From: Curvivirga aplysinae
GTDB lineage: Bacteria > Pseudomonadota > Alphaproteobacteria > UBA8366 > Aestuariispiraceae
Assembly (NCBI RefSeq): GCF_009711445.1
Contig: NZ_SMMC01000206.1
Span: 1-50,138, forward strand
Direction of reading: 5' to 3'
Length of the DNA: 50,138 nt
A program made the position numbers and the translations under genes. The number at the start of each line of letters is the position of its first letter. The stretch's first letter is position 1. The notes beneath the pieces were generated by a model. The model saw only the letters and a program-made list of their open reading frames with translations, had not been told where the DNA came from and ran no database searches. Shown piece after piece: positions 146 to 21,772 of this stretch.

Positions 146-1477
146 ATGCGTAGTCCTTTGGAATGGTTTAGTAATATTGAATCTCCTACCCTAAGACGGG
201 AAGGGGAAATCCGTACGCATAGCTTAATTTTGCTTCGCTGGTTTGCCGTTTTTGGACAGCTGATAGCGATAGGTGTAGTCACCTTTGGCTTAAACTTCCC
301 AATTGAGCTATATCCATGCCTTATCCTGATTAGCATTTTGGCCATATCCAACTTATGGATGGGTATTTCCACTAGCCAAACAAATCGTATGTCAAATTAC
401 CATACCGCACGTCTGTTGGCTTTTGATATGATCCAGCTAACCGCATTATTTTATTATACAGGCGGTTTAGAAAATCCATTCTCACTCACTATTTTAGTCC
501 CAGTTACAATCGCTGCCACCTTGCTTTCCCGGGGTGCCACAGTGATGCTGACTGTATTAGCACTTTTCTGCGCGACATTTATGGCCTTTTATCACGAACC
601 CCTTCCTTGGCAAGGAAGTCTACTGGATATTCATACGGGACGAGTTTCTATTCTATATATTGTTGGGCTTTGGGTTGCCTTGGCATTGGCCATTCTCCTA
701 ATGGCACTTTATCTTTGGTCCCTCACAGAAGAAGCACGTAAAACCTCTGAAGCCTTACAACAAACTGAATCTGCCTTGGCACGCGAACAAAAAATCTCCG
801 CACTTGGCGGCTTAGCGGCCTCTGCCGCCCATGAACTGGGAACACCGCTTTCCACAATCAGCTTGATTGCCAAGGAATTAATGAATGATTTGCCCGATGA
901 TAGTCCCTATTTCGAAGATGTAGAGCTTCTTGTGAGCCAATCACTCAGATGCCGGGATATCTTGGCAAAATTATCCGTGCAACCGGAACATATAGGTGGT
1001 GAAAGTTTTGAAGAACTCACACTTTCCCATATGGTTGAGCAAGCCATGCAAGATCATGTGCCACCGCATATTACAAGCAAGTTCATCTTTGATGAAAATT
1101 CTATTGGTGCAGAACCTATTGTTTATCCTTCCCCAGAGCTTCTTCAAGGACTTGGAAATTTCTATAGCAATGCAGGACAATTTGCTCAGAATATAATTGA
1201 GACCCATTTCAGTTGGGACGAAAATGGCTATCGCCTCATTATTGAAGATGATGGCCCCGGTTTTCCGGCCACTGTTATAGAAAAAATTGGCCAACCTTAT
1301 ATTTCCACCCGAACTGGTGAAGATGGGCATATGGGACTTGGTTTATTTATTGCCATTACTCTGCTAGAACGTGTTCAAGCACATGTTCGTATCCAAAATA
1401 AATTACCAAATGGCGCGCGCGTCGAGATCTTGTTTCCCGTCAATAATAAAAACGATGAAGATATAACAAATGTCTGA
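146..1477 (+). CDS. regB: RegB/PrrB/ActS-type redox sensor histidine kinase
   Basis: Membrane sensor kinase of the global redox system that phosphorylates RegA. About six hydrophobic segments lie in residues 28-190. They contain GGLENPF (106-112), which matches the GGxxNPF quinone-binding heptapeptide of RegB. The H-box is typical of RegB (AAHELGTPLS, His229). It is followed by the redox box LLVSQSLRCRDIL with Cys269, equivalent to the cysteine that forms an intermolecular disulfide in Rhodobacter RegB. An N-box asparagine (342), DDGPGF (368-373) and a glycine-rich box (391-400) complete the ATPase domain. The 443-aa length is normal. The gene overlaps regA by 8 nt in the same direction, as in rhizobial actSR rather than the divergent Rhodobacter layout. 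The start is the first ATG of the frame; no strong ribosome-binding site is visible. The 145 bases upstream are AT-rich and show no recognisable site. Confidence 0.95.
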   Translation: MRSPLEWFSNIESPTLRREGEIRTHSLILLRWFAVFGQLIAIGVVTFGLNFPIELYPCLILISILAISNLWMGISTSQTNRMSNYHTARLLAFDMIQLTALFYYTGGLENPFSLTILVPVTIAATLLSRGATVMLTVLALFCATFMAFYHEPLPWQGSLLDIHTGRVSILYIVGLWVALALAILLMALYLWSLTEEARKTSEALQQTESALAREQKISALGGLAASAAHELGTPLSTISLIAKELMNDLPDDSPYFEDVELLVSQSLRCRDILAKLSVQPEHIGGESFEELTLSHMVEQAMQDHVPPHITSKFIFDENSIGAEPIVYPSPELLQGLGNFYSNAGQFAQNIIETHFSWDENGYRLIIEDDGPGFPATVIEKIGQPYISTRTGEDGHMGLGLFIAITLLERVQAHVRIQNKLPNGARVEILFPVNNKNDEDITNV

Positions 1478-2045
1478 AGCACAAGATAATCCAACTTCCT
1501 CTCTTAGAGAGCGCAGTTTACTGTTAATGGATGATGATAATGTTCTTTTATCGCGTTTGGCACGTGCTATGGAAAAACGTGGTTTTGACGTTTCAACGGC
1601 CGCCTCAATCTCTGACTGCCTCACCATTATTCAACAAAATCCGCCTGCCTATGCGGTTATGGATTTGCGTTTGGATGATGGTAGCGGTTTGGAGGCTGTA
1701 GAAGCTTTATCTGAAGCACGCCCTGATGCGCGCATCATCATGCTTACAGGATATGGTAATATTGCAACGGCGGTAAGCGCCGTGAAAGCCGGGGCTGTTG
1801 ATTACCTTTCCAAACCAGCTGATGCAGACCAGATCACAGCCGCTTTACTGGAAGAAGATAACAGTCTACCCTCGCCACCAGAAAATCCGATGACTGCAGA
1901 TCGTGCTCGCTGGGAGCATATTCAACGCGTTTATGAACAATGCGACCGTAATGTTTCTGAAACCGCGCGACGCTTACAAATGCACCGCCGCAGCTTACAA
2001 CGTATTTTGGCAAAACACGCACCTAAAGACGCATCAAGCGAATAG
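1470..2045 (+). CDS. regA: RegA/PrrA/ActR-type response regulator
   Basis: DNA-binding partner of the RegB kinase, controlling energy-related genes (respiration, carbon and nitrogen fixation) in response to redox state. The N-terminal receiver has the acidic triad DDD (21-23), phospho-acceptor Asp65 in VMDLRLDDGSG, Thr93 and Lys115. A proline-containing linker (132-140) leads to a Fis-type helix-turn-helix (about 147-180) ending MHRRSLQRILAKHAP, which is nearly invariant among RegA proteins. At 191 aa it is close to the usual 180-190. Its ATG lies inside the last codons of regB, so translation is probably coupled. The senC gene that often accompanies regA is not adjacent. Confidence 0.95.
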   Translation: MSEAQDNPTSSLRERSLLLMDDDNVLLSRLARAMEKRGFDVSTAASISDCLTIIQQNPPAYAVMDLRLDDGSGLEAVEALSEARPDARIIMLTGYGNIATAVSAVKAGAVDYLSKPADADQITAALLEEDNSLPSPPENPMTADRARWEHIQRVYEQCDRNVSETARRLQMHRRSLQRILAKHAPKDASSE

Positions 2046-19142: not shown

Positions 19143-21083
19143 TTATCTGATTTCATCTTCAAGACGCGACATCACCCGCTGCCAATAAATAGCAGGATAG
19201 CCACCTCCGGATATGTTATCCATCGGGGTGGCTTTATCATTTCCAATCCAAACCCCCATGGCCAGAGCTTTTCTTGCCGTTAAATTGTCTTTTGCAAAAC
19301 CAATAAACCATGCATCTTTGTTTAACTGTGTTGTTCCAGTCTTACCGGAAACATAACTTTTTTCCAATTGCGCTCGCTTGCCAGTCCCATCCAACACAAC
19401 ACTATGCAGCATCTCAGTCATATTTTCTGCAATGTCTTCGTCCAGTATTTCACTATCATCTTCAAAATGAGTAAAGAGCACTTCGCCATTTCCGGCCCTG
19501 ATCTCCTTGATCCCATGCGGTATCGCCGCAAGGCCATTATTTGCAATCACCGCATATGCACCTGTCATTTCCATTAAAGATATCTCTTGCACCCCTAAAG
19601 GAAGGGATGGATGTTCTTGCATGGGTGCCGTAATTCCCAATCGCCGTGCCATTTGTATTACCTCACCTCTTCCTACTTTTTCAGCTATGGCTACAGCGGC
19701 TTTATTAAGTGAGAGACGCAACCCATTCTCTAAGGAAACTTTTTCTTGATAGCCATTATCAGGATTATTCAACAAAGATTGATCCCTCGGACTCCAACCA
19801 TCAATCACAATATTAGAAATATCAATCTGATCGTCAGGCTCCAAACCACTTTCAAGGCCTGCTAAATATGCGATTGGTTTAAATACAGACCCGGTTTGAC
19901 GTTTTGCATGAACGGCACGATTAAAAGGTGAGATTGACCAGTTCTTCCCACCTAACATCGCTGTTACTGCGCCATCCTCTCGCATGATCACTGCAGCGAT
20001 CTGTTCAGCATTTGCTTTAACTGCTTGATTTAAAATTTTCCAAATTTGACTTTCCAAAGCTCTTTGATGACTTGGTTCAAACGTTGTCTGAATTATTAAA
20101 TCATCATCTATGGGACCAATAAGATGTGATACACGTCCCATTACCCAGTCAGCAAAGTACCGGTTATTCTGTCCTGCGCGCGCGCCAACGATCTTAACTT
20201 TCTTACGTTTATGAGTATCGGCCGTGGCTTGTTGTAAGAACTCAGCATTTACCATGAGATCAAGAACCAAATTTGCCCGTTTGGCACTTCTTTCTGCATT
20301 TGCACGAGGATTATATGCACTTGGTGCCTTAGGTAGGCCTGCTAAGACAGCACTCTCATATAGAGATAAATTAGAAGCAGATTTACCAAAATATTTACGT
20401 GCAGCGGCATCCACCCCGTAAACACCAGACCCCAAATATACACGATTTAAATAAATCGTTAAAATCTCATCTTTGCTAAACGATTTTTCCAACCAGAAGG
20501 CAAGAAGCAACTCTTGTACTTTTCTACGAATTGTTTTTTCTCGCGTCAGAAACAGGTTTTTCGCCAATTGCTGCGTCAAACTTGACCCACCTTGACGATA
20601 ACCACCACTGGTTAAATTCACAAATATTGCACGCCCAAGACCAAATATATCGATACCAAAATGATCATAGAATCTGCGGTCTTCTGTGGCGATAAAGGCC
20701 TGAATTACAGAAGGGGGTAATTCATCCAATGTGATTGGCCGACCATGCGTCCCACCTTGCCGTGCTAATACAGAACCATCTGCGGCTAAAACTGTCATAG
20801 AAGGATTACGAGTGATAGCTTTTGTTGCCGTTTCCGGATTGGGAAGATCCCAAGCAAACCACAGTAAAATTCCTGCAAAAGCCACACCACCCCAAATCCC
20901 GAATGTTAAAATCCATTTTAACCATTTCCACAAAGGACGTGACGTTTTCGTCTGAACTAAGCTACTTTCCCTAGAACGAAACTTATCTTTAGCATCTGAT
21001 TTTGCAGCTTTTTTGGCTGCAACTTTCTTCGTTGCTTTTTTTGATTTTATTTTTTTATTTTTGGGGTTTTGTGTATTTGCCAT
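19143..21083 (-). CDS. Bifunctional penicillin-binding protein (PBP1 class A)
   Basis: Inner-membrane peptidoglycan synthase that polymerises and cross-links glycan strands. A Lys/Ala-rich cytoplasmic N-terminus is followed by one membrane helix (about 52-77). The GT51 glycosyltransferase domain has ATEDRRFYDHFG with catalytic Glu134 and QGGSSLTQQLAKN. The transpeptidase domain has SVFK (Ser399-Lys402), SLN (458-460) and KTG (581-583). At 646 aa it is shorter than E. coli PBP1a and lacks extra C-terminal domains. The ATG at 21083 was chosen over a GTG at 21110; neither has a clear ribosome-binding site. It diverges from irr. Confidence 0.9.
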   Translation of the reverse strand: MANTQNPKNKKIKSKKATKKVAAKKAAKSDAKDKFRSRESSLVQTKTSRPLWKWLKWILTFGIWGGVAFAGILLWFAWDLPNPETATKAITRNPSMTVLAADGSVLARQGGTHGRPITLDELPPSVIQAFIATEDRRFYDHFGIDIFGLGRAIFVNLTSGGYRQGGSSLTQQLAKNLFLTREKTIRRKVQELLLAFWLEKSFSKDEILTIYLNRVYLGSGVYGVDAAARKYFGKSASNLSLYESAVLAGLPKAPSAYNPRANAERSAKRANLVLDLMVNAEFLQQATADTHKRKKVKIVGARAGQNNRYFADWVMGRVSHLIGPIDDDLIIQTTFEPSHQRALESQIWKILNQAVKANAEQIAAVIMREDGAVTAMLGGKNWSISPFNRAVHAKRQTGSVFKPIAYLAGLESGLEPDDQIDISNIVIDGWSPRDQSLLNNPDNGYQEKVSLENGLRLSLNKAAVAIAEKVGRGEVIQMARRLGITAPMQEHPSLPLGVQEISLMEMTGAYAVIANNGLAAIPHGIKEIRAGNGEVLFTHFEDDSEILDEDIAENMTEMLHSVVLDGTGKRAQLEKSYVSGKTGTTQLNKDAWFIGFAKDNLTARKALAMGVWIGNDKATPMDNISGGGYPAIYWQRVMSRLEDEIR

Positions 21084-21130
21084 AGCATAGATATACGCAG
21101 AGTCGGCCACATCGCCAAGCCTTGGTATTG

Positions 21131-21147
21131 TTTAGAAATTGACTAAA
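21131..21147. promoter_or_regulatory. Candidate Irr box (ICE-like)
   Basis: TTTAGAAATTGACTAAA resembles the alphaproteobacterial iron control element as I recall it, TTTAGAA-N3-TTCTAAA, matching 12 of 14 defined positions. The outer TTTAG/CTAAA arms are exact at the correct spacing. It lies 92 bp upstream of irr and overlaps a TTGACT (21139-21144) that could be a -35 element. Autoregulation of irr is the natural reading, but the divergent PBP gene could also respond. Confidence 0.45.
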
Positions 21148-21162
21148 GTTAAATGCTCTTCC

Positions 21163-21176
21163 TTGATATAGATCAA
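21163..21176. promoter_or_regulatory. Perfect FNR/FixK-type box
   Basis: TTGATATAGATCAA is an exact match to the FNR/FnrL half-site consensus TTGAT-N4-ATCAA. It is centred about 70 bp before the irr ATG and about 86 bp before the chosen PBP start on the other strand. It partly overlaps a possible -10 region. It suggests oxygen-responsive control of irr or of the divergent gene by an FNR-family protein not encoded in this window. Confidence 0.55.
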
Positions 21177-21238: not shown

Positions 21239-21658
21239 ATGCAAAAACAACGTACATATTCAAAATGCCTAGAAAAACTTAACGCGGTGGGTCTTCGCCC
21301 AACCAAGCAGCGGTTGGGTTTAGCACGTCTTTTATTTGAACGTCCTTTTGATCATGTAACTGCAGAGCAGTTGCACAAGGATGCACATGATGCGCGTCTG
21401 AAAATTTCTTTGGCAACTGTCTATAATACACTGAATCAATTTAGTGACGCAGGACTTGTACGTGAAGTGGTTCTGGAATCAAGTCATTCTTATTTTTGTA
21501 CAAATCCATCACCACATCATCACATGTATAATGAAGCAACTGGCGAGATTACCGATATTCCAGTTGATCAAATCGAAGTTAGCAAACTCCCTAATTTGCC
21601 AGATGATCTTTCCATTGCATCAGTTGATGTGGTTATTCGCGTGAATCAAAACGCCTAA
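21239..21658 (+). CDS. irr: Irr-type Fur-family iron response regulator
   Basis: 139-aa DNA-binding regulator of the Fur superfamily, best matching Irr, the alphaproteobacterial iron/heme-status regulator. The winged-helix domain contains GLRPTKQRLGLARLLF and ISLATVYNTLNQFSDAGLVREV. The HHH of NPSPHHHMYNEATGEI (93-95) corresponds to the heme/metal-binding histidines of Irr. The N-terminal GCPW heme-regulatory motif of Bradyrhizobium Irr is absent, as in most other Irr proteins. No Shine-Dalgarno sequence is visible. Candidate Irr and FNR boxes lie upstream, and rubrerythrin follows in the same direction. Confidence 0.85.
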   Translation: MQKQRTYSKCLEKLNAVGLRPTKQRLGLARLLFERPFDHVTAEQLHKDAHDARLKISLATVYNTLNQFSDAGLVREVVLESSHSYFCTNPSPHHHMYNEATGEITDIPVDQIEVSKLPNLPDDLSIASVDVVIRVNQNA

Positions 21659-21714
21659 ACAAAACCAGATAAATATACTTTTCCAATCTGATATATTGTT
21701 CGTTTAGATTGAAT

Positions 21715-21772
21715 AAATGACAAGAATCCTGTTCCTGTCATTTCAGGGCTAGCCCTATCGGTTTAAACTGAT
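21715..21772 (+). promoter_or_regulatory. Cluster of three inverted repeats between irr and rubrerythrin
   Basis: Three adjacent dyads. First, AAATGACA/TGTCATTT (21715-21722 and 21736-21743) with an inner GAA/TTC extension, which could be the irr terminator although no long T run follows. Second, the perfect 12-bp palindrome AGGGCTAGCCCT (21745-21756). Third, the near-palindrome ATCGGTTTAAACTGAT (21757-21772). The last two sit in the promoter region of the rubrerythrin gene and look like operators. The regulator is unknown. Confidence 0.4.

Follow-up and report, generated by a model that had tools for sequence, protein, structure and literature searches.

The closest described systems are in R. 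palustris. In strain TIE-1, six anaerobic conditions brought Rpal_2583 ('possibly Irr') up 13- to 92-fold, and in a fixK mutant it was down on succinate, acetate, benzoate and hydrogen (0.04 to 0.5) and not lowered on 4-hydroxybenzoate (4.3) or Fe(II) (1.49), according to the portions of that study used here (PMC3050613). The canonical FixK boxes of the study came from an earlier scan of R. palustris CGA009 promoters, with Rpal_2583 among the TIE-1 homologues; direct FixK binding was demonstrated at the pioABC promoter, whereas the Rpal_2583 site is a prediction (PMC3050613). For irr of R. palustris, upstream FnrN/FixK sites have also been predicted (PMC4999443). FNR/FixK-family control of irr is thus already known in kind, and the earlier note on this DNA, which knew of no described case of FNR control of irr, is to that extent superseded.

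Two further systems bear on the locus. In R. sphaeroides, FnrL boxes are found at hemN, hemA, the gene of a SUF protein and feoA, and irr is not named among the FnrL targets in the parts of that report considered (PMC4634722); a second report describes FnrL as without effect on isc-suf expression (PMC7728643). Irr-bound ICE elements are known at rubrerythrin-type and iron genes, for example mbfA (PMC3413700, PMC7540006). Within the portions of the open-licence PMC literature covered, we found no report of FnrL control of irr.

Here we describe an irr gene in a 50,138-nucleotide stretch of Curvivirga aplysinae DNA (the window, meaning the whole stretch that was analysed). Like Rpal_2583, which adds anoxic induction and CRP/FNR-family dependence, the gene is irr-like and carries a predicted FNR/FixK-type site (PMC3050613). 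It differs in that the R. palustris regulator, FixK, is without an oxygen-sensing cluster and in that the present case is known from sequence alone. The approach resembles the comparative-genomic prediction of an FNR-type site upstream of irr in PMC4999443, with the difference that R. palustris belongs to the Rhizobiales and the source genome is another alphaproteobacterium with a single lineage-specific site. As in the Rhodobacter FnrL regulon (PMC4634722), heme, Fe-S and iron genes are placed, here by prediction, under FnrL. The short rubrerythrin beside irr is different from membrane-bound MbfA of the known Irr targets (PMC3413700, PMC7540006). An FnrL site on this irr gene is plausible from the comparisons that follow.

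Results

The irr product scored above the cut-off of its NCBIfam model (Table 1) and, at 163.5 bits, below the cut-off of 170 of a second Irr model. A PBP gene is found on the opposite strand upstream of irr in 26 of 125 loci, including 14 of 14 genomes of the family, so that the gap between the two genes can be compared across the family. Downstream, a rubrerythrin gene on the same strand as irr was present at 91 of the 125 loci (some loci were short), and the rubrerythrin that the earlier note had placed near irr is a real gene. The same note had put RegBA-type redox control next to irr. ORFs for a RegB/RegA-like sensor kinase and response regulator were indeed recognized by eye at window 146-2045; they are not neighbours of irr, and at about 19 kb from it 'next to' is too loose a description.

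Table 1 Features of the irr locus, in window coordinates
Feature	Position	Strand	Basis or remark
Divergent class A penicillin-binding protein (PBP) gene	19143..21083	-	ATG 21083; GTG 21110 possible
Two weak overlapping ICE-like matches upstream of irr	21121-21137, 21131-21147	.	9.5 bits, P 0.40; 10.4 bits, P 0.227; not significant
Perfect FNR/FixK-type box TTGATATAGATCAA	21163..21176	.	Sequence match; gap shuffles
Candidate irr core promoter TTCCCA-17-TATAAA	21204..21232	+	Read by eye; TATAAA at -12 to -7 of irr ATG
irr (IrrA, Fur superfamily), 139 aa	21239..21658	+	NCBIfam NF045678 178.6 bits, cut-off 150; Pfam FUR
irr codon 87, TGT = Cys	21497..21499	+	Asp in 124/124 compared relatives
Apparent ICE remnant TTTAGATTGAATAAATG	21703..21719	.	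+45 after irr stop (relatives +28 to +64); -0.4 bits vs at least 13.5 in most relatives
Rubrerythrin gene, 139 aa	21846..22265	+	3' of irr

In the 155-bp gap between the PBP gene (minus strand) and irr (plus strand), TTGATATAGATCAA agrees with the consensus TTGATNNNNATCAA at 10 of 10 defined positions, forming a TTGAT-N4-ATCAA palindrome. Both the full match and the location in a divergent promoter region had been claimed before, and both were confirmed. A perfect box in this gap by chance is unlikely: dinucleotide-preserving shuffles of the 155 bp produced one in 14 of 40,000 trials, which argues for an FnrL site in the irr promoter. Across the genome (3.56 Mb) there was no enrichment, with 14 perfect boxes found and 14.9 expected from window composition, and the whole window held 3 matches with at most one mismatch against 4.64 expected. 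Because the genome count lies so close to the chance expectation, a perfect match alone is little proof, and we rejected perfection by itself as a measure of significance. The absence of an excess counts against an FnrL site on irr and in favour of a different explanation, that the palindrome is a functionless chance match produced by drift in an A+T-rich gap.

The comparison of relatives points the same way. The set comprised 14 genomes of the family, with the genus represented by the source genome only. Within 300 bp upstream of irr, a perfect box occurred at 1 of 125 loci, that of the source genome, and a box with at most one mismatch at 3 of 125, where 19 control palindromes averaged 0.74 and never exceeded 4. 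Upstream of irr the box was absent, even with one mismatch allowed, from all 13 other genomes of the family. Conservation of the box in relatives made up half of the refutation test that the earlier note had set for itself, and on this half the box is not conserved. Its absence from the other 124 irr loci favours a chance match and speaks against a working FnrL site; it is also consistent with a lineage-specific, recently gained candidate FnrL site, which we regard as plausible. The earlier proposal of oxygen control of irr through FNR therefore keeps the promoter location, the encoded FnrL-type regulator and the conserved hemN box described below on its side, and has the lack of conservation at irr against it.

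By position relative to ORFs, eight of the 14 perfect boxes are intragenic, four are intergenic and upstream of genes, one falls in a terminator-like inverted repeat and one coincides with the TTG start of a PAS sensor gene, which would put it upstream of that gene if a downstream ATG is the true start. The intragenic boxes were rejected as FNR targets for their location; so was the box at L018, because it is part of a terminator-like inverted repeat flanked by convergent genes. The genes that follow the four upstream boxes are irr, hemN, coxB and the gene of an Rrf2-type SUF regulator with sufB behind it, a set that supports an FnrL site on irr. Of these, coxB, hemN and the SUF regulator exceeded NCBIfam cut-offs, and sufB, like the sensor gene, was identified by eye. 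At hemN, 12 of 30 loci carried a perfect box and 26 of 30 a box with at most one mismatch, with control palindromes at 3 or fewer. At the SUF regulator, a box with at most one mismatch was found at 3 of 30 loci, namely in the source genome, in G001 (0 mismatches) and in G004 (1 mismatch); these last two are the sister group of the source genome and its two nearest relatives (support 0.998, from a table covering G000-G012). The SUF-regulator box itself (L022 at 2980, G000:C113:31979-31992) is perfect, stands upstream of the regulator and sufB, and is shared with G001 and G004 only.

A chance origin of the irr box gains from the genome count, from the eight intragenic boxes and from the lack of conservation, and the intragenic and terminator-like boxes also weigh against an FnrL site on irr. 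Against chance, five boxes lie outside ORFs (one of them terminator-like) where about 1.4 would be expected on our estimate that intergenic DNA makes up a tenth of the genome, and two other promoter boxes, those of hemN and the SUF regulator, have conservation on their side. We consider a chance match unlikely, though it is the alternative to be taken most seriously.

A predicted cognate regulator is encoded in the same genome as the box. A single Crp/Fnr protein in the genome has FNR features (L001 1483-2241, minus strand): four N-terminal cysteines arranged as C-x2-C-x7-C-x-C, a central cysteine that aligns with that of solved FNR chains, and the recognition helix ETVSR (E-x-x-S-R). Its best match was the FnrL model, at 175.2 bits and below the 300-bit cut-off of that model. 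The N-terminal cysteine cluster was not seen in L002 and L003, two other strong Crp/Fnr matches that were read from sequence. These features suggest a 4Fe-4S FnrL-type regulator and favour an FnrL site on irr, and the hemN comparison supports at least one conserved target for this predicted regulator.

We examined how the box is placed relative to possible transcription starts. The candidate core promoter of irr is missing from the output of the consensus promoter scan, since the scan requires T at the last position. No Shine-Dalgarno sequence is evident before the irr ATG, and because of this and the position of TATAAA the irr transcript may be leaderless, starting at the ATG; the box centre would then lie at about -69.5. 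Known FNR sites are centred at -41.5 or at class I positions such as -61.5 and -71.5. The value of -69.5 is near a class I position but not exactly a known one, and there is no -10 element at class II distance, and both points detract from an FnrL site acting on irr. The elements GGGCTTCCCA and TATAAA also occur near the irr ATG of G001, with different spacing.

The divergent arrangement raises the question of which gene the box would serve. A functional box could equally act on the PBP gene, instead of irr or together with it, and this counts against assigning it to irr; the box is 86 bp away from the ATG of the PBP gene and 69.5 bp away from that of irr, and the divergent pair is kept in every genome of the family. 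On the minus strand, however, no good -10 element at class II distance was seen by eye either, and no class A PBP is known to us to be under FNR control. Action on the PBP gene is in our judgement improbable.

It is similarly hard to credit that FnrL represses irr, a reading in which TGATATAGAT within the box would be an extended -10 that FnrL covers in anoxia. The stretch TG-A-TATAGA does read as an extended -10, and a similar TGATATAGT precedes the rubrerythrin gene; yet no -35 is present at 16-18 bp, the R. palustris precedent is mostly activation, and TATAAA next to the ATG is the better core.

The tandem of irr and a short rubrerythrin gene is conserved, and in most relatives a strong Irr-box-like palindrome stands in the gap between the two. 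In a de novo palindrome search of this gap in the relatives, several random starts converged on TTTAGAATAATTCTAAA, which we take to be the Irr box, or ICE. The letters used for the source genome and its relatives were recovered de novo, and not drawn from PMC3413700 or PMC7540006. For the family counts and the P values of 0.40 and 0.43 given here, duplicates were removed and the profile was trained outside the family, which left 120 of the 125 upstream and 117 of the 125 downstream stretches (dropped were duplicates and stretches that contained N or were short) and took G013 out of the downstream test. Of the 13 family genomes tested, 11 had an ICE of at least 12 bits downstream of irr, with 0.26 expected. 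The two exceptions were G006, which gave no rubrerythrin downstream of irr, and the source genome. With the same profile, no ICE-like palindrome of at least 12 bits was present in the irr-rubrerythrin gap of the source genome; the best match there had 7.2 bits (P 0.43) and lay in a different place from that in relatives. The apparent remnant listed in Table 1 retains the left half TTTAGA alone.

Upstream of irr the relatives carry a weaker ICE, of at least 10 bits in 9 of 14 family genomes (1.96 expected), and the best match in the source genome was not significant by shuffling (9.5 bits, P 0.40). The overlapping TTTAGAAATTGACTAAA at 21131 was rejected as a clear Irr box, its P of 0.227 coming from a test whose cross-validation sets have some records in common; in the deduplicated test the match overlapping it was the best. 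The reading that fits best is that the source lineage has been losing the Irr-box wiring of its irr-rubrerythrin pair.

The Irr protein itself has changed as well. It departs from several columns conserved in at least 85% of the 124 other Irr proteins, position 87 among them. Residues H39, D87, H93, H95 and D106, which we assume by analogy with PerR, and not from a published Irr definition, to be metal ligands, are invariant in the 124 others; the source protein keeps four of the five and has Cys at 87. In an alignment with the FUR-family chain 5nl9, position 87 falls on an Asp; on the PerR analogy it would be a regulatory metal ligand. Reaching any Asp codon from TGT takes at least two changes, so that a single read error is unlikely. 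Cys87 is a departure within the family and no ground for removing the protein from Irr.

Discussion

We lean slightly towards the view that the box is a working FnrL site which activates irr in low oxygen. What has been observed is the sequence, the neighbouring genes, the presence of a gene for an FnrL-type protein, the conservation of the box at hemN and the lack of one at irr in relatives; the R. palustris precedent speaks for the view. As regards binding, activation, start site and physiological role, we propose that in low oxygen FnrL with an intact 4Fe-4S cluster would bind the box and would raise irr transcription from a class I-like position, centred at about -69.5 if the TATAAA promoter sets the start at the ATG. 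The gene would then join hemN, the Rrf2-type SUF regulator with the suf operon, and coxB in one regulon, a membership that would couple oxygen to heme, Fe-S and iron control. If this is true, FnrL couples oxygen directly to the iron/heme regulator Irr.

Together with Cys87, the eroded Irr-box module adds a little to the interest that the locus has from the box alone. These changes could be parts of one regulatory swap, in which the Irr-box wiring decayed, the metal-site Asp of Irr became Cys, and irr gained direct oxygen control by FnrL. We put this forward very tentatively, as a reading that is more probably wrong than right; if it were true, an iron/heme regulator would now belong to the anaerobic regulon, and this conserved gene pair would present a natural example of regulator-input exchange. 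G001 and G004, in which an Irr box precedes rubrerythrin and irr lacks an FNR box, offer a ready comparison.

Additional Irr-box-like sites

The genome-wide ICE search with three mismatches gave 417 matches versus 737 for the reversed control and was uninformative. The mbfA model was over its cut-off in 1 of 59 genomes (G053), and no ICE was seen at that G053 locus. ICE-type sites are not gone from the source genome, because a perfect palindrome, ATTAGAACGGTTCTAAT, stands 145 bp before an imelysin-like gene (L170 at 1347, G000:C162:4246-4262), a candidate Irr target. In family members, Irr-box-like sites lie by YaaA-like, Dps-like, KatG-like and glutathione-reductase-like genes (L277, L282, L283, L288 and L292; names assigned by eye), which suggests a peroxide-linked Irr regulon.
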